Shown here: one piece after another, positions 26,220 through 49,668 of the stretch
Position numbering within the stretch: position 1 is the stretch's first letter
How the letters are laid out: each line of letters begins with the position of its first letter
NCBI RefSeq assembly: GCF_020883455.1
Contig: NZ_CP086615.1
Location: forward strand, 2,108,001 to 2,172,000
Length of the DNA: 64,000 nt
Origin: Spiribacter halobius
GTDB taxonomy: Bacteria > Pseudomonadota > Gammaproteobacteria > Nitrococcales > Nitrococcaceae
Direction: 5' to 3'
Program-made: the position numbers and the translations under genes
Notes under the pieces: generated by a model
The model's database searches: none
Seen by the model: the letters and a program-made list of their open reading frames with translations, nothing else
What the model was told of the DNA's origin: nothing

Positions 26220-26972
26220 ATGACTGCGCGGCGGGGGGCGGAGCTGGAGCCGGCGTTTCTGCTGCATGGGCGGGCGTATCGGGATACCAGCCTGCTGCTG
26301 GAGGTGCTGGGGCGCGAGCACGGGCGGATCGGGCTGGTGGCGCGGGGCGTGCGCGGGCGGCGGTCGCGACTTGCGGGGCTGCTGCAGCCTTTCCAGCCGC
26401 TGGCCATCTCCTGGCTGGCGCGCGGAGAGCTCGGCACCCTCACCGGTGCGGAGAGTGCCGGGCGCCCGGTGATCCTCAGCGGCCGCCGTCTGGTGAGCGG
26501 GTTCTACGCCAACGAGCTGCTGCTGCGCCTGCTCGGGCGCGAGGACCCGCACCCGGGGCTGTTCAACCGCTACGGCCGGCTGCTCGACGAGCTCGCCGGC
26601 GGTACCAGTGAGGCCGTGGCGCTGCGCGGCTTCGAGCGGGATCTGTTGGCGGCCCTCGGTTACGGCCTGCCCCTCAAGCACGACACGGCCGGCGACCCGG
26701 TGGAGGCCGGGCGCTGGTACCGTTACGATCCCGCGCAGGGTGTCCTGCCGGCCGACGCCGCCGGCGGCGAGCGCGGGCTCGTCACCGGCGCCACGCTGCT
26801 CGCGCTGGCGGCGGACCAGCTCGACGACACCTCGGCACGGGCCGCGCGCGATCTCATGCGCGCGGCACTGCGCCCGCATCTCGGCGCGCGGCCCCTGAAG
26901 AGCCGCGAGCTCTACGCCCGCTACCAGACCACCGGAGAGGACAGCGATGGGGCATCATCAGGGCAGTCATGA
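26220..26972 (+). CDS. recO: DNA repair protein RecO
   Basis: A 250-residue recombination mediator that works with RecR to load RecA on gapped DNA. The N-terminal OB domain has [20 protein letters not shown] and [17 protein letters not shown]; the helical middle contains [20 protein letters not shown], a well-conserved RecO stretch. The zinc-site cysteines found in some RecO proteins are absent, as in E. coli. The ATG at 26220 is 34 bases from the repeat element; the frame upstream runs through the repeat and is not used. It overlaps pdxJ by 26 bases. Confidence 0.92.
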
Positions 26973-27696
26973 GCCGCTCCTGGGCGTCAACGTGGATCAC
27001 GTGGCGACCCTGCGCCAGGCCCGCGGCACGCGTTATCCGGACCCGGTGCAGGCGGCGCTGCTGGCCGAGCAGGCGGGTGCGGATGCGATCACCGTGCATC
27101 TGCGCGAGGACCGCCGGCACATCCAGGACCGCGACGTGCGCCTGCTCGCCGAGGTACTGCAGACCCGCATGAATCTGGAGATGGCCATGGCCGAGGAGAT
27201 GCTGGCCCTGGCCGAGGACCTGCGGCCGGCGGATTGCTGCCTCGTGCCCGAGCGCCGCGAGGAGCTGACCACGGAAGGCGGCCTGGATGTGGCCGGACAG
27301 CCCGAGCGCACCGCCGAGGCCTGCGCGCGCCTGGCCGCTGCGGGTGTTCGCGTGTCGCTGTTCATCGACCCCGAGCCGGCCCAGCTGCATGCCGCCGCCG
27401 GGGCCGGCGCCCCGGTGGTGGAGCTGCACACTGGCCACTTCGCCGAGGCGTTGGAGGACGCGGCGATTCACGCCGAATTCGTGCGCCTGCGGGAGGCGGC
27501 GGTGCTCGGGCAGTCGCTGGGCCTGCAGGTCAATGCCGGTCACGGTCTGCATTACCACAATGTGGCTCCGGTGGCGGCCCTGCGCGAGATCACCGAGCTC
27601 AACATTGGCCATGCGGTGATTGCCAGGGCGCTGTTTACCGGCATCGAGGCGGCCGTGCGGGAGATGAAGCGCCTGATGCGCGAGGCCCGCCATTGA
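26947..27696 (+). CDS. pdxJ: Pyridoxine 5'-phosphate synthase
   Basis: A 249-residue TIM-barrel enzyme that condenses 1-deoxyxylulose 5-phosphate with 3-amino-2-oxopropyl phosphate to form pyridoxine 5'-phosphate. Motifs include [20 protein letters not shown] at the N-terminus, [46 protein letters not shown] and [11 protein letters not shown]. Its substrate deoxyxylulose phosphate is also the product predicted for the RuBisCO-like/cupin pair at 45-47 kb. The stop codon overlaps the acpS start. Confidence 0.96.
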
Positions 27697-45246: not shown

Positions 45247-45711
45247 CTACCGCCGCAGGCGCCTCGCGACCTCCGGGTTCGCGCTGATTCGGGCCACGGT
45301 GTCGTCATCGGCGAGCCGGGGGCGGTCGCGATCGCGGCTGACGATGCAGAGGAAGCCCAGCGGCTCGTCGCCGGTGGCGTGGAACTGATGGGCGGCCCAG
45401 GGGCCGATGTAGACCACGTCATGGGGTGCCACCGGTTCCAGCCGGTCTTCCAGGATGACCTCTCCACGCCCGCGCAGGATCACCACGGAATGCGGATGGC
45501 CGTGTTGCTCCAGGGAGGTGTAGCCGCCCGGCTCGACCTCGAAATAGCGGGTCTCCAGCGCGAGCGCCGCCTCGTCCTCGGCGGTGCCGAGCAGCGTCTG
45601 CCGGGTGACGCCCCGGAAATGCGTGCCTTCGGTCTTGTAGGCGTGCACCGACACGCCCTGCCACTGCCAGTCGCGGGCCCGGATCACCCGGGTCGGGCGC
45701 TCGTCACTCAT
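45247..45711 (-). CDS. Cupin-domain protein, probable partner of the RuBisCO-like protein
   Basis: A 154-residue single-domain cupin. The metal site is in SLEQHGHPHSVVILRGRGE (three His, one Glu nearby) and the second motif in IGPWAAHQFHATGDEPLGF. In Rhodospirillum rubrum a cupin encoded near a RuBisCO-like protein converts 1-methylthioxylulose 5-phosphate to deoxyxylulose 5-phosphate, releasing methanethiol; this cupin has a similar context and size. The direct evidence is only the fold and the 8-base overlap with the RuBisCO-like gene. It is the last gene of the four-gene operon starting at 48977. Confidence 0.75.
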   Translation of the reverse strand: MSDERPTRVIRARDWQWQGVSVHAYKTEGTHFRGVTRQTLLGTAEDEAALALETRYFEVEPGGYTSLEQHGHPHSVVILRGRGEVILEDRLEPVAPHDVVYIGPWAAHQFHATGDEPLGFLCIVSRDRDRPRLADDDTVARISANPEVARRLRR

Positions 45712-46816
45712 GCCGCTCCTCGAGGGCCGCGCGGAAGCGCTGGGCCGCCGTCGTGAGGTCTCCGGCGCGATACAGGTCGCCGCCGATCAGAAAGATCGTG
45801 TCTGCCCCATAGCGTGCCGCCCATTGCGGCGCGGCGTCCATGCTCATACCGCCGCCGGGCATGGGCCACGCCCCGCGCAGGCCGCCGAGAGGCGCCCGGA
45901 GGCGCTCCGCGATCGCCAGACACCGGGCCTCGCTGAAGGCGAAGCGCCCGCCTGCATTCGGATAGATGACCGCGTCCGCGCCGGCGATCCGGAACAGCTC
46001 TCCGAGCAGCACCGGCGTGTCGATGCCGTGATCCGGCCGCAGCAGCCCGCCGGTCAGGGCCGGGTGGGCGAGCACGGCGAGGCCGTGGGCGTCGCGCAGG
46101 TGTGCAACGGCCGCGAGCCCCGCGATCCAGGCATTCAGCAGCACGGTATCGCAGCCGGCGGCGCGGGCGGCCTCGGCGCGGCGATCCAGCTCCGCCGGGC
46201 CGGCGGTGACGTTGGGGCAGTAGCGCGCCTGCCCGCCGGTGGCGGCGTTGGCCCGGGTCACGGCCGCCTGGCAGCGTGCGAGGCGCTCGGCGAACGGGGC
46301 GGTGCGCTGGTCGGCGAGGCCGTGGTCGTCCTTGATCAGGTCGAGGCCGCCGCGGGCGAAGGCCTCGCAGCGCTGCGCCAGGCTGGCGGCGTCGAGACCC
46401 ACCGGCTTCAGGGCCGTTGCAAGCAGGGGACCGTCGTGCACGCGGAGCCGCGTGCGCAGCCCGGCGATGCCGAGCGCCGGGCCGCCCAGGCACGCCAGCA
46501 GGCCCGCCGGCCAGTCCACCCCCACCAGGCGGATTCCGGACTGCAGGGAGCTGTTGCCGAACAGCAGATTGAGGAGCTGGGTGAGCTCGCCGCCGGCCAC
46601 CGCCTCGGGGAAGCTGACGCCGGCCAGCCAGAGGCCGTCGCCCAGGGGCTCGAGCGAGGTGCACCGGCCAATCCATTCCGCGGCGATGGGGTCGGGCAGC
46701 GTCTCCGACGGCAACTCCGCGGTCTGCTCGAGGCAGAGCGCCTCGACCTTGGCTACCGGATCCTCACCGGGGCCGACGCGAATCTCGTAGCGCGCAAGGA
46801 AACGCGGCTCGCTCAC
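45704..46816 (-). CDS. RuBisCO-like protein (form IV)
   Basis: A 370-residue homologue of the RuBisCO large subunit, shorter than true RuBisCO. The barrel lysine is in TALKPVGL (Lys137), and the metal loop reads LIKDDHGLADQ (Lys162, Asp164), where the Glu of carboxylating enzymes is His165; His251 is in LAHPALTGG, and the phosphate loop is PMPGGGMSM near 320. Carboxylation is therefore unlikely. The Rhodospirillum rubrum protein of similar length isomerises 5-methylthioribulose 1-phosphate; other such proteins act on apionate-derived sugars. The cupin partner favours the first. It starts at GTG 46816, overlapping the upstream stop codon by GTGA. Confidence 0.85.
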   Translation of the reverse strand: MSEPRFLARYEIRVGPGEDPVAKVEALCLEQTAELPSETLPDPIAAEWIGRCTSLEPLGDGLWLAGVSFPEAVAGGELTQLLNLLFGNSSLQSGIRLVGVDWPAGLLACLGGPALGIAGLRTRLRVHDGPLLATALKPVGLDAASLAQRCEAFARGGLDLIKDDHGLADQRTAPFAERLARCQAAVTRANAATGGQARYCPNVTAGPAELDRRAEAARAAGCDTVLLNAWIAGLAAVAHLRDAHGLAVLAHPALTGGLLRPDHGIDTPVLLGELFRIAGADAVIYPNAGGRFAFSEARCLAIAERLRAPLGGLRGAWPMPGGGMSMDAAPQWAARYGADTIFLIGGDLYRAGDLTTAAQRFRAALEERHE

Positions 46817-47931
46817 GGCGTTCCGTCGCCCACCTGGTCGCCGCCAGCCTGGCGCGCCTGCTGAATGGCAAGATCCGCCGCGTTCACGAGGCCCTCGGTA
46901 TCGGCGCCGTGCTCAGGGTACGCGGCGACTCCGACCGAGACGCTCAGTGCCGCGTCGCCACTCGCCATGGCGGCCACCGCCCGACGCATCCCCTCGGCCC
47001 GCTGACGGGCATCGGCAGCGGAGCATTCCGGCATGATCAGCGCGAAGCGTTCCCCGGACAGCCGGCAGGGGACGTCCGCGCTGCGGAAGCGCTCGCGCAG
47101 CAGGCTCGCGATGGCCTGGAGCATGCGGTCGCCCTGCTCATGGCCGAAGCGGTCGTTGTAGAGCCCGAACCGGTCCACATCCACCAGCACCAGGGCAACC
47201 TGGCCGCCGCGGCGTTCGGCGCGGTGCAGCTCGCGCTCCAGGTGCTCCTTCAGGTAGGGCGGGTTGTATAGCCCGGTGAGGGGATCGCGCAGGGCGGAGT
47301 GCCGCAGCCGCCGCTGCAGGGCCATGCCGCCGAGCACCAGGCCGGCGCAGCGGGCCAGCAGCTCGGCGCGCTGCTCGAGGGTGTCGCCGAGACGCTGCGA
47401 CTCGGACTCGGGCCAGACCCGCAGCGCGCCGAGGCGCAATCCGAAGCCGCGGATGGGAAATTCCAGCGCCTCGCCGGTCGGGCCCGCGGCCTCGCGCCGG
47501 GCCAGCTGCTCCGGCGGGCTCGCCGCCCCCCGCCGACCATAGCTGCGGTTCCACTGGTTCTGGCCGTCCCAGACCCCGACCACGGCGGGTTCGGCGTCCT
47601 CCGCGCCCAGGCCGAATGCGCCCCGGGTGCCGGGCAGCAGCTGCCGGGCGGCGGAGACCATGACCTCGATGGCGTCCGACTCGGTGGGCGCAACGGCCAG
47701 GCGGGACAGCAGGCCACTCACCTGAGACAGGGGCAGGCTCGCGGGGTCGCCGCTTTCCGGTGTGGCCAGGGTGCCAAGGGTGTTCAGCTCCTCGCCCAGG
47801 GCCTCCTTGAGCGCGTGGAGCTCGGCGCCGAGGGCGTCCTGGCGCTCCAGCAGCTCGCGCAGGCGGGCCAGGGCAAGCCGCTGCGCCGCGCCCGGGCGGC
47901 CCGCGCGGCCGGCATCGGTGGGCTCGCTCAT
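46813..47931 (-). CDS. GAF-GGDEF domain protein with degenerate GGDEF motif
   Basis: A 372-residue soluble protein. An N-terminal helical stretch rich in Leu, Glu and Ala (coiled coil, about 20-60) is followed by a GAF-like sensory region and a GGDEF domain with DPLTGLYNPPYLKEHL, VALVLVDVDRFGLYNDRFGH and VSVGVAAYPEHG. The active-site loop reads SGERF instead of GG(D/E)EF, so cyclic-di-GMP synthesis is doubtful; it may bind nucleotide or act through protein contacts. The upstream inhibitory RxxD site is not evident. The ATG at 47931 overlaps the kinase stop as ATGA and it overlaps the next gene by four bases, so it is translated within a metabolic operon. Confidence 0.82.
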   Translation of the reverse strand: MSEPTDAGRAGRPGAAQRLALARLRELLERQDALGAELHALKEALGEELNTLGTLATPESGDPASLPLSQVSGLLSRLAVAPTESDAIEVMVSAARQLLPGTRGAFGLGAEDAEPAVVGVWDGQNQWNRSYGRRGAASPPEQLARREAAGPTGEALEFPIRGFGLRLGALRVWPESESQRLGDTLEQRAELLARCAGLVLGGMALQRRLRHSALRDPLTGLYNPPYLKEHLERELHRAERRGGQVALVLVDVDRFGLYNDRFGHEQGDRMLQAIASLLRERFRSADVPCRLSGERFALIMPECSAADARQRAEGMRRAVAAMASGDAALSVSVGVAAYPEHGADTEGLVNAADLAIQQARQAGGDQVGDGTP

Positions 47932-48977
47932 GCGTTGGCCCGGGTCGCCGCTTCCTCGCTCCATTGCCGGAGCAGGGCAGAGACGTGGCCGAGAAACGGC
48001 CAGGCGACCAGCAGCTGGGTGAACAGGATGGTGGAGGGCAGCGCCTCGCGCTCGCGCGCCGTGGCCGCCGGCGCCGGCAGACCGGCGAGGTTGAGGATCT
48101 CGTCCTCGAGCTGGCGCAGCGCGTCCATGGGCATGCGGCCGTCCACGTGCACCACGTTCACCGGACGCCCCCAGAAGCTGCTGGGCACCGTCGCGATCAT
48201 GAACGGCATCGCCTGCTGGCGGGTCATGTTGTTCATGTCCACCGGCATGTACAGGGAAGGCTGCGGCACTTCCGTTGGCGTGACGATGATCTCCATGTGG
48301 TAGCAGGTCTCCGGCACGCGCGCCTTCAGCTCCTCCACGGCGAGCGCCGCCAGCTCGCTCTGGTGGATGCGCACGATGACGTCCGCATTGGCCTTCTGGA
48401 AATCGATCCAGCGGCGGTAGTCCGCCTGCCGCAGCTCCATCTGGCGCCGGGCCTCCGCCGGCTCGTAGCCGCGCTCGCTGACGTCACGGTCGAGCTTCCA
48501 CTGCCATTTCACGTCGTCGTCGGAGTCCACGTACAGGCGGAAGTCCACGAAGGGCAGGAACTCCGGATACAGGGTGTGCAGCCCCTCGACGATGATCACC
48601 GGCGTCGGCCGGTGCCGGCGCGGCGCGGCGAAGGTGCCCGTCTCATGGTCGTAGACCGGAACCTCCACCGTCTCGCCGCGGCGCAGCCGCGCCAGGTGGT
48701 CCACCGCCTGGGGCAGGTGGTTCGCCCGCGGATCCAGCGGCGAGCGCCCGCTCCGCCGGCGCTGGGCGCGGTCTTCCTTGTGGTAGCCATCGAGGCTGAT
48801 CTGGCTGACCACATCGCTGCCCAGCAACCGCTCGATGCCCTGGGTGTAGGTGGTCTTGCCGCTGCCGCTGTCACCCGCCACGGCGACCACGATCGGCCGG
48901 CCCGCCTCGCGGAGGAGGCCCCGGAGATCGTCGCGGCGCTGCGCGGTATCCGCTGGGCGGCCGGGGTTGCGCTCCAT
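47928..48977 (-). CDS. Phosphoribulokinase/uridine kinase family sugar kinase
   Basis: A 349-residue P-loop kinase. Walker A is VAGDSGSGKTTYTQG (residues 33-47), followed by SLDGYHKEDRAQRR, which corresponds to the substrate-binding DxYH motif, and IVEGLHTLYPEFLPFVDFRL with the Walker B-like region. KWQWKLDRDVSERGY resembles the arginine-rich segment of the plant/cyanobacterial class of phosphoribulokinase. Such enzymes phosphorylate carbon 1 of ribulose 5-phosphate. No Calvin-cycle gene is near; instead it heads the operon for a GGDEF protein, a RuBisCO-like protein and a cupin, suggesting another ketopentose substrate (inference). Confidence 0.8.
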   Translation of the reverse strand: MERNPGRPADTAQRRDDLRGLLREAGRPIVVAVAGDSGSGKTTYTQGIERLLGSDVVSQISLDGYHKEDRAQRRRSGRSPLDPRANHLPQAVDHLARLRRGETVEVPVYDHETGTFAAPRRHRPTPVIIVEGLHTLYPEFLPFVDFRLYVDSDDDVKWQWKLDRDVSERGYEPAEARRQMELRQADYRRWIDFQKANADVIVRIHQSELAALAVEELKARVPETCYHMEIIVTPTEVPQPSLYMPVDMNNMTRQQAMPFMIATVPSSFWGRPVNVVHVDGRMPMDALRQLEDEILNLAGLPAPAATAREREALPSTILFTQLLVAWPFLGHVSALLRQWSEEAATRANA

Positions 48978-49045
48978 GGCGGGTCCTCGCGGCAGGGGGT
49001 GACGGAAGCGGACGGATCAGGTCATGGACGACCGTAGATGCTCCC

Positions 49046-49073
49046 ATTCTCCGGTCCGCCCGAGCGCTGTCAA
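49046..49073 (-). promoter_or_regulatory. Probable promoter of the kinase/RuBisCO-like operon
   Basis: On the minus strand a perfect TTGACA (49068-49073) is 16 bases from GAGAAT (49046-49051), which matches the -10 consensus at four positions. The start would be near 49038, about 60 bases before the kinase ATG. The 211-base gap is shared with the divergent rraA. Confidence 0.45.
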
Positions 49074-49188
49074 ATACTGCCGGCCCGGCGACGGCAGACC
49101 GCCTTCGGCGCTATGCTACCCAGACAGTTGTACGCCCCGCATGGGCGCGGTTAGCGTCGGCGGCGGATCGAGAGGAGTGAGTAGGAGC

Positions 49189-49668
49189 ATGGCGATCAAG
49201 ACCACCGATCTCTGCGATGAGCATGAGGAGGCACTCCGGGTGCTCGCCCCCCTGTTCGGGGATTATGGCGGGCGCCATGCCTTCGCCGGCACCATTGCCA
49301 CGGTCAAGGTGTTCGAGGACAACAGCCGCGTGCGCGAGGCCCTCGACGAGCCGGGCGAGGGTCGCGTGCTGGTGATCGACGGCGGCGGCTCGCTGCGCTG
49401 TGCCCTGCTCGGGGATCAGCTGGCGGCCAAGGCGCGGGACAACGGCTGGAGCGGCGTGGTGGTCTACGGCTGCGTACGCGATGCCGCCGACCTCGCCGAT
49501 CTCGACGTCGGCATCAAGGCGCTGAACACCCATCCCTGCCGCAGCATCAAGCGCGGCGAGGGCGAGCGTGACGTGGCGGTGACCTTTGCCGGCGTAACGC
49601 TGCGCAGCGGCGAGTGGCTCTGCGCCGATGCCGACGGCATCATCGTGGCCGAGCAGCCGCTGGCGTGA
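49189..49668 (+). CDS. rraA: RraA-type regulator of RNase E activity
   Basis: A 159-residue RraA family protein. Proteins of this family bind RNase E and lower its activity; some relatives are oxaloacetate/4-hydroxy-4-methyl-2-oxoglutarate aldolases. Conserved stretches are TTDLCDEHEE at the N-terminus, GRVLVIDGGGSLRCALLGD, VVVYGCVRDAADL and GEWLCADADGIIV. The ATG at 49189 follows TAGGAG, with the open frame upstream being non-coding. The length and the TTDLCD start favour the RNase E regulator type. Confidence 0.9.
   Translation: MAIKTTDLCDEHEEALRVLAPLFGDYGGRHAFAGTIATVKVFEDNSRVREALDEPGEGRVLVIDGGGSLRCALLGDQLAAKARDNGWSGVVVYGCVRDAADLADLDVGIKALNTHPCRSIKRGEGERDVAVTFAGVTLRSGEWLCADADGIIVAEQPLA

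Follow-up and report, generated by a model that had tools for sequence, protein, structure and literature searches.

An orphan phosphoribulokinase in an operon with a RuBisCO-like protein and cupin of the presumed methylthioadenosine-isoprenoid shunt in Spiribacter halobius

The Calvin cycle is usually recognised by two enzymes taken together, phosphoribulokinase (PRK) and RuBisCO. A 64,000-nucleotide stretch of the Spiribacter halobius genome (hereafter the window, to whose numbering all coordinates refer) raises the question of what a kinase of this family does when it is encoded upstream of a RuBisCO-like protein (RLP) and a cupin. The operon occupies positions 45247-48977 and consists of four genes, all on the minus strand, in the order kinase, GGDEF, RLP, cupin. 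The features discussed here, with Pfam scores where available, are as follows:

47928-48977, minus strand: kinase, an orphan phosphoribulokinase of 349 aa (PF00485 PRK, 128 bits; PRK07429; ribulose 5-phosphate-binding residues)
46813-47931, minus strand: GGDEF-domain protein with the degenerate motif SGERF (PF00990 GGDEF, 136 bits), the ATG at 47931 being the likelier start
46813-47964, minus strand: alternative longer form of the GGDEF-domain protein, from an upstream ATG at 47964 (383 aa)
45704-46816, minus strand: RLP, presumed 5-methylthioribulose-1-phosphate isomerase, GTG start, 370 aa (PF00016 RuBisCO_large, 83 bits; PDB 3qfw; tree; cupin adjacency)
45247-45711, minus strand: cupin, presumed 1-methylthioxylulose-5-phosphate methylsulfurylase, 154 aa (PF07883 Cupin_2, 45 bits; PDB 3jzv and 3ibm)
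48978-49188, no strand: intergenic region between the operon and the divergent rraA, presumed operon promoter (from the gene ends and the rraA ATG at 49189)
49189-49668, plus strand: rraA, a divergent neighbour outside the pathway (NCBIfam RraA, 233.5 bits, cut-off 136)
26947-27696, plus strand: pdxJ, a user of 1-deoxyxylulose 5-phosphate (DXP), given for context only (TIGR00559, 315 bits, cut-off 193)

The initial annotation of this DNA had described a four-gene operon joined by 4-, 4- and 8-base overlaps and had noted PdxJ in the same window, and both descriptions were confirmed. The kinase and GGDEF genes overlap by 4 bases (47928-47931) with the start at 47931 and by 37 with the start at 47964, the GGDEF and RLP genes by 4 (46813-46816), and the RLP and cupin genes by 8 (45704-45711); the four genes are probably co-transcribed. 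The gene set was also found to recur in an order-level sample of 40 genomes, 7 of which are less than 90% complete, so that single absences are weak there (among them G017, G018, G020, G021 (87%), G022 (74%) and G033 (78%)). An RLP is present in 26 of the 40, the window's own genome included, and the cupin adjoins it in all 26 (in G023 the RLP is divided between two contig ends, with the cupin on one of them). Wherever the kinase and the RLP occur together, the kinase is encoded upstream of the RLP and in the same orientation (15/15, counting G027, whose locus is split across two contigs), with an intervening GGDEF gene found in 10 of these genomes. Given this recurrence, the arrangement is not due to chance. 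The divergent order of rraA and the kinase recurs in relatives both with and without an RLP. The 54 records returned by a plasmid search each covered less than 80% of the query, at identities below 60%.

The RLP and cupin had been likened to the pair known from Rhodospirillum rubrum, and the comparisons made here agree. The best PDB match of the RLP is 3qfw (E 2e-75), which we take to be a protein from Rhodopseudomonas palustris. In a tree of 58 rows the window RLP and 3qfw fell in a 43-row clade with an SH-aLRT support of 99, with the MtnW (2oek) and RuBisCO rows outside; the assignment of this clade to the R. rubrum/R. palustris (DeepYkr) type runs through 3qfw, the R. rubrum RLP itself not being among the rows. 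The apionate pathway, which the initial annotation had named as the competing placement, does not fit, as the RLP scores 66.6 bits on the model of the decarboxylase OiaX against an NCBIfam cut-off of 700. An identity as the enolase MtnW was likewise rejected (NCBIfam MtnW models, 144.5 bits versus 513.6 and 179.5 versus 409). The cupin matches 3ibm (E 1e-56) and 3jzv (E 3e-35), the latter being Rru_A2000, described in PMC4958253 as the R. rubrum MTXu-5P sulfurylase. That paper also points to Halorhodospira halophila and Nitrococcus mobilis, where RLP and cupin homologues stand in a comparable gene order and may belong to this pathway as well. From these similarities the RLP is presumed to be a 5-methylthioribulose-1-phosphate isomerase and the cupin a 1-methylthioxylulose-5-phosphate methylsulfurylase.

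Methylthioadenosine (MTA) is a by-product of S-adenosylmethionine use. In the proposed shunt, MTA would be deaminated to methylthioinosine by a deaminase-like hydrolase, methylthioinosine would be phosphorolysed to 5-methylthioribose 1-phosphate, and MtnA would convert this to 5-methylthioribulose 1-phosphate. The RLP would then yield 1-methylthioxylulose 5-phosphate, from which the cupin would take off the methylthio group (ending as methanethiol) to give DXP for the MEP pathway and PdxJ. Candidates for all three upstream enzymes are encoded elsewhere in the genome and score over their curated cut-offs: S-methyl-5'-thioinosine phosphorylase (381 bits, cut-off 223), a TRZ/ATZ hydrolase (673, cut-off 540) and MtnA (433, cut-off 279). 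The hydrolase gene is divergent to mtnA, and its product is probably the MTA deaminase, although the family to which it belongs carries no more specific name than "TRZ/ATZ family hydrolase". Among the 40 genomes, those with MtnA are the same 26 that have the RLP (over the curated cut-off in 25, the remaining one being split over contig ends).

The R. rubrum system (Rru_A1998 RLP and Rru_A2000 cupin; PMC4958253) and that of R. palustris (RLP1 RPA2169 and cupin RPA2170; PMC5893883) are alike in their RLP-cupin neighbours, in MtnA and in the expected products DXP and methanethiol. In contrast to both, the Spiribacter operon adds genes for a phosphoribulokinase and for a GGDEF protein with a degenerate motif, several relatives also have an EamA-type transporter in the operon, and MTA probably enters via methylthioinosine and not by direct phosphorolysis. 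A methylthioinosine route is described for Pseudomonas aeruginosa (PMC6302742), which is alike in having a deaminase-like hydrolase and a methylthioinosine phosphorylase ahead of MtnA, whereas here the route would feed the RLP-cupin shunt.

A further difference from the R. rubrum and R. palustris systems is that some relatives lack a match to DXP synthase (DXS). DXS is present in the window's genome, and a match over the cut-off is missing in 9 of the 40 genomes. One of these, G022 (74% complete, no RLP), was left out; the other eight all have the RLP, the cupin, MtnA and the orphan kinase (some of them in incomplete assemblies: G005, 94% complete; G027, 91%; G033, 78%; G039, 95%). MEP-pathway genes were sampled in three of the eight: dxr, ispD and ispF were found in G026 (20 + 2 stretches) and G025 (16 + 2 stretches), and in the 18 stretches of G024 there was an ispA-like match only, with none of dxr, ispD or ispF. 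The shunt may be the main source of DXP in these eight genomes. A survey reported 181 candidate species in which DXS alone is missing; five of these had both shunt enzymes, and such a substitution was proposed (PMC10663253). Those five are alike in missing DXS while having the shunt enzymes; here the pattern is seen at order level, and two members were found to have dxr, ispD and ispF. We would like to note that G035 has a two-piece transketolase-type pair that reaches 173 bits with the DXS model, whose cut-off is 466, and might conceivably act as a DXS. A similar two-piece pair is present in the window's genome besides its own DXS.

The GGDEF protein carries SGERF at the active-site position, and a GG[DE]EF motif was present in none of the 15 readable rows of the 16 aligned. 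An active diguanylate cyclase was rejected on this ground, and the protein, having lost its catalytic motif, probably acts as a regulator that senses nucleotides or binds proteins.

The kinase itself scores 280.5 bits on the NCBIfam phosphoribulokinase model PRK07429 (cut-off 236) and is of the plant, cyanobacterial and archaea-like type, with the signature LDGYHKED. It resembles the plant, cyanobacterial and methanogen enzymes (PDB 6gve, 6hzk and 5b3f) in fold family, P-loop and all tested ribulose 5-phosphate (Ru5P) contacts, and differs from the cyanobacterial 6gve in lacking, at the aligned positions, its Cys residues, which presumably have a role in redox control. The Ru5P-binding residues given in PMC5241800 for MhPRK of M. 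hungatei, namely Arg59, Arg62, Tyr98, His100 (5-phosphate site), His55, Lys151 and Arg154, are all identical in the window kinase and in 28/28 distinct relatives. In contrast, the MhPRK Asp53 position is Gly in 28/28 relatives (DDYH to DGYH), a fixed change next to the catalytic loop that sets the clade apart from the four solved enzymes used in the comparison. Conservation of this kind does not prove a substrate, and the Asp53 position is changed in the whole clade. In a class-wide sample of 370 genomes there were full-length relatives (at least 46% identity) in five (G000, G001, G003, G024 and G321) and seven weaker relatives in which the kinase domain only was covered; G321 has the kinase, yet lies outside the genomes with a RuBisCO-family match. 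No paper on this clade was found in the open-licence PMC literature, among the matches listed.

Each of the 40 order-level genomes has one convincing phosphoribulokinase. The orphan type is present in 29/29 genomes without a detected RuBisCO and in 0/11 with one; in these 11 the PRK is of another type, which scored 219-231 bits on PF00485 and passed the NCBIfam PRK15453 cut-off in all four proteins tested, one per RuBisCO genus. In the window's genome, a search with the RLP as query matched only the RLP at E <= 1e-5; such searches recovered form-I-type proteins in relatives (E 1e-17 to 1e-22) and might miss a form II. A hidden Calvin cycle is argued against by the Calvin-cycle PRK being found in 0/29 genomes without a detected RuBisCO. 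The initial annotation had considered that the kinase might be the organism's sole and active Calvin-cycle PRK, and half of this stands: the genome has no other PF00485 match, but the partner RuBisCO is absent from the matches, and we therefore do not file it as a Calvin-cycle enzyme. The orphan kinase is also found in 14 genomes without an RLP and without MtnA (in RLP-less genomes the MtnA model gave no match at E <= 0.001), and it is absent from 11 genomes with both; as the 14 belong to one genus, they perhaps reflect a single loss. Small genomes of 1.2-2.2 Mb without a detected RuBisCO, the smallest of which are incomplete drafts, keep it too.

We would also note that the kinase being upstream of the RLP in 15/15 genomes would fit a shared pathway better than independence.

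Taken as a whole, we give a probability of roughly 0.75 to the reading that the RLP-cupin pair fits the known MTA-isoprenoid shunt, that the kinase is a phosphoribulokinase with a role needing neither the RLP nor RuBisCO, and that the GGDEF protein is a probable regulator. The kinase would add a phosphate to C1 of a ketopentose that already carries one at C5, most likely Ru5P, and a RuBisCO-independent use of it is likely. We suggest more tentatively that phosphoribulokinase activity, hence ribulose 1,5-bisphosphate (RuBP), may have a purpose besides feeding RuBisCO in this order.

The lack of a detected RuBisCO to use RuBP, together with the fixed Asp-to-Gly change, would suit a kinase with a different keto sugar (5-phosphorylated or longer) as its substrate. 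This seems unlikely to us, since all tested Ru5P contacts are conserved, the kinase and the Calvin-cycle PRK are mutually exclusive, as expected of isofunctional enzymes, and a replacement of transaldolase is improbable with a transaldolase-family gene in 40/40 genomes (a short version of it in the case of the window's genome and of the RLP-less genus). The kinase as a stand-in for a missing transaldolase was rejected on the same count. A coupling to ribose-1,5-bisphosphate isomerase was rejected because the RLP-less genomes gave no match to the MtnA model, which is related to the model of that isomerase and would probably have revealed it, and a hydrogenase link, to which two cyanobacterial relatives had pointed, failed in the third.

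No partner enzyme was found for the kinase, and PRK homologues without RuBisCO are common (Prk hits in 4,284 genomes versus RuBisCO hits in 2,141 in the survey of PMC7895386), as would be expected of a relic or passenger without a present role; nevertheless, its retention with an intact active site in all 29 genomes without a detected RuBisCO, small ones included, makes this quite improbable. The initial annotation had instead proposed that the kinase phosphorylates 5-methylthioribulose to the RLP substrate and so bypasses the phosphorylase. First place in the operon and the constant position upstream of the RLP speak for this, but a phosphorylase-isomerase route is already encoded, MtnA accompanies the RLP in 26/26 genomes, the kinase occurs without RLP and MtnA and is missing where both are present, and its 5-phosphate-binding residues are invariant while 5-methylthioribulose has no 5-phosphate; we consider the proposal unsupported and very improbable. 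Next to no weight can be given to a direct route from Ru5P to DXP by kinase and RLP, in which RuBP would be enolised, lose its C1 phosphate and be reduced: RuBisCO is known to eliminate phosphate from enolised RuBP as a side reaction, the eight genomes without a DXS match over the cut-off all have an adjacent RLP and kinase, and MTA flux alone may be insufficient for all isoprenoids, but 14 genomes have the kinase without the RLP and 11 the reverse, none of the operon's genes was recognised as encoding a reductase, and the MTA route is complete without the kinase.

For the preferred reading of a phosphoribulokinase working apart from RuBisCO, an intact PRK in 29/29 genomes without a detected RuBisCO, with a Calvin-cycle PRK instead in 11/11 with RuBisCO, suggests that the PRK product has a use so far overlooked. 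That PRK homologues without RuBisCO are common was already known (PMC7895386), and the new part is the either-or pattern; such a use could be tested in relatives that are in culture, Spiribacter and Arhodomonas among them. Methionine salvage as the sole supply of DXP has already been published as a hypothesis (PMC10663253), and the relatives with MEP genes and without a DXS match over the cut-off would be natural test cases for it.

The four-gene set described in the initial annotation is present, with overlaps of 4, 4 and 8 bases from kinase through GGDEF gene and RuBisCO-like protein (RLP) to cupin, and Pfam and NCBIfam concur with its family names for all four:

47928-48977, minus strand: phosphoribulokinase (PRK)-family kinase
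46813-47931 or 47964 (alternative starts), minus strand: GGDEF protein
45704-46816, minus strand: RLP
45247-45711, minus strand: cupin
49189 (start): rraA, divergent to the operon

The set also recurs as the initial annotation had asked. Among 40 genomes (the window's own plus relatives of the same order), an RLP was found in 26, own included, and a cupin adjoins it in all 26; the kinase lies upstream of the RLP on the same strand in 15 of the 15 genomes carrying both, with a GGDEF gene found between them in 10. Diguanylate cyclase activity is improbable for the GGDEF protein, because in an alignment of 16 rows (window included, 5 duplicate loci removed beforehand) GG[DE]EF was found in none of the 15 readable at that place. 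A gap of ~1 kb preceding the RLP is filled by an open frame of 293-350 aa at 6 of 7 loci checked, and all three frames analysed matched the EamA transporter family in Pfam. In several relatives an EamA-type transporter gene lies between the GGDEF and RLP genes (e.g. locus L043:6845-7723); it is absent from the window.

The RLP-cupin half of the operon belongs, as expected, to the methylthioadenosine (MTA)-isoprenoid shunt, a pathway already known. The window cupin matches PDB 3jzv, which is Rru_A2000, the protein that PMC4958253 identifies as methylthioxylulose 5-phosphate sulfurylase of R. rubrum; the same source gives Halorhodospira halophila and Nitrococcus mobilis both RLP and cupin homologues in similar gene organisation, and R. 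palustris RLP1 and its cupin are reported to function in the same shunt (PMC5893883). In a 58-row tree, built by a quick method and with warnings for long branches among RuBisCO rows and for unusual residue composition in six, the window RLP fell within a 43-row clade including PDB 3qfw (SH-aLRT 99), separate from MtnW-type proteins and RuBisCO. The apionate-pathway identity (OiaX) that the initial annotation had set against its reading was rejected, as was MtnW, both models scoring far under cut-off. The RLPs of two more distant genomes, G095 (L156:2473-9832) and G051 (L158:4129-9191), sit between truD and surE with ispD and ispF upstream, which sets them next to MEP-pathway genes; a cupin accompanies the RLP in G095, and none was detected in G051. 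In two other distant genomes, G205 (L159:5030-6031) and G254 (L162:7246-8055), a transketolase-type half protein precedes the RLP. Both half proteins match E. coli DXS at 27-29%, and that of L159 consists of Transket_pyr plus Transketolase_C. No cupin was detected near either RLP, and these RLPs possibly have another function.

Matches to the DXS model TIGR00204 passed the cut-off of 466 bits in 31 of the 40 genomes, including the window's own (847 bits), and did not in G005, G022, G024, G025, G026, G027, G033, G035 and G039. G022 is 74% complete and lacks the RLP; the other eight all carry RLP, cupin, MtnA and kinase. G026 is a single contig, estimated 100% complete, and its top match of 73 bits was taken for what is probably a related thiamine-diphosphate enzyme. 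The absence is less certain in G035 because of a two-piece transketolase-type pair (G035:C1:563844-565747) whose second piece reaches 173 bits; a similar pair occurs in the window's genome (G000:C1:3917357-3919269, ~171 bits). Sampling covered three of the eight: G026 and G025 have dxr (479 and 515 bits, cut-off 316), ispD and ispF, and in the sampled stretches of G024 these three were not among the matches. Since G029, of the same genus as G026, has DXS, either DXS was lost recently or patchily, or one draft is in error. A published survey lists 181 candidate species lacking only DXS, 5 of which carry both shunt enzymes, and suggests substitution (PMC10663253), so the order-level pattern adds to a published idea. 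Surprisingly, several relatives may rely on methionine salvage for 1-deoxyxylulose 5-phosphate.

The initial annotation had further proposed that the kinase phosphorylates 5-methylthioribulose to the RLP substrate, bypassing the phosphorylase route. This bypass is unsupported. The window's genome has genes for S-methyl-5'-thioinosine phosphorylase (381 bits, cut-off 223), for MtnA (433, cut-off 279) and, transcribed divergently from mtnA, for a TRZ/ATZ hydrolase (673, cut-off 540). The hydrolase we infer to be the enzyme that deaminates MTA in the methylthioinosine route, which is described for Pseudomonas (PMC6302742). MtnA and the RLP coincide: all 26 RLP genomes have an MtnA match (25 above the curated cut-off; split across contig ends in G009, G004 and G027), and the 14 without RLP have none. 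The RLP substrate can therefore be made without the kinase. The sulphate bound in M. hungatei PRK where the phosphate of ribulose 5-phosphate (Ru5P) would lie is held by Arg59, Arg62, Tyr98 and His100; His55 and Lys151 likewise contribute to binding Ru5P, and Arg154 to binding ATP (PMC5241800). None of the seven varies between the M. hungatei enzyme, the window kinase and 28 of 28 distinct relatives (38 rows, 10 duplicates dropped). Because 5-methylthioribulose has no 5-phosphate, the invariant site argues against it as substrate. The window-type kinase differs from M. hungatei PRK in having Gly for Asp53 in all 28 relatives, and from cyanobacterial PRK 6gve in that the cysteines of the latter are replaced.

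Searches with PF00485 gave one convincing PRK in each of the 40 genomes (G028 and G034 have an additional match of 20-21 bits, one marked as passing the cut-off of 22 together with its neighbours). It is of the window type in 29 (114-147 bits). Neither RLP nor MtnA is present in fourteen of these, possibly through a single loss, as all fourteen belong to genus g2, where the kinase lies beside rraA without RLP, GGDEF or cupin at 7 of 7 loci examined. The remaining 11, RLP genomes from four genera, carry a different type (219-231 bits); in each of them the RLP search gave a second match, inside a 481-524-aa open frame that we read (one in full) as probable form I RuBisCO. Their PRK lies <5 kb from that match in 6 of 11, and otherwise on another contig or far away (G002). 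One PRK per RuBisCO genus (4 checked) scored 481-500 bits on NCBIfam PRK15453 (cut-off 362) and 63-69 on the model fitting the window kinase (cut-off 236). By genus the exclusion is 12 window-type to 4 RuBisCO-type with 0 exceptions. Were genera independent, which holds only in part, chance would give perfect exclusion for these margins in 1 of 1,820; at least two changes are required on a tree built from linked neighbour proteins (25 of 40 genomes, genus g3 left out). The one apparent exception is a second RuBisCO-family protein in G003 (L029:44-2652), which was not counted as RuBisCO: OiaX is the model it fits best (473 bits, cut-off 700), and an SBD_N/NBD_C kinase adjoins it.

Outside the order, the nearest kinase relatives found are in cyanobacterial MAGs G406 and G407 (47-48% identical); such relatives are rare, E <= 1e-90 being reached in 2 of 244 cyanobacterial genomes. 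There the kinase lies between Oxidored_q6 and NiFe-hydrogenase large-subunit genes by Pfam (L181:7331-11722, L184:6746-10526), an arrangement that by eye resembles a hox-type operon; this setting was not found at a third cyanobacterial relative (L192). Both MAGs also carry another, higher-scoring PRK, and G407 a third PRK-family protein resembling PDB 9qkn by eye (L193:2482-3423). G321, distant within the same class, has a 46% identical kinase (L153:7878-8969) among neighbours that look unrelated by eye, and no RuBisCO-family match was found there in a class-wide genome search.

Selection against carrying both PRK types is an alternative explanation of the exclusion that would fit the same data. 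We read the pattern as suggesting that PRK activity is retained, with either enzyme type sufficing. The initial annotation had held that a sole, active PRK serving a Calvin cycle would contradict its proposal: the window's genome does have one convincing PRK, of the window type, and RuBisCO was not detected there. That PRK homologues occur without RuBisCO was known before: one survey gives Prk matches in 4,284 genomes and RuBisCO matches in 2,141 (PMC7895386). The other surprise that remains is that across this order a PRK has been kept without a detected RuBisCO.
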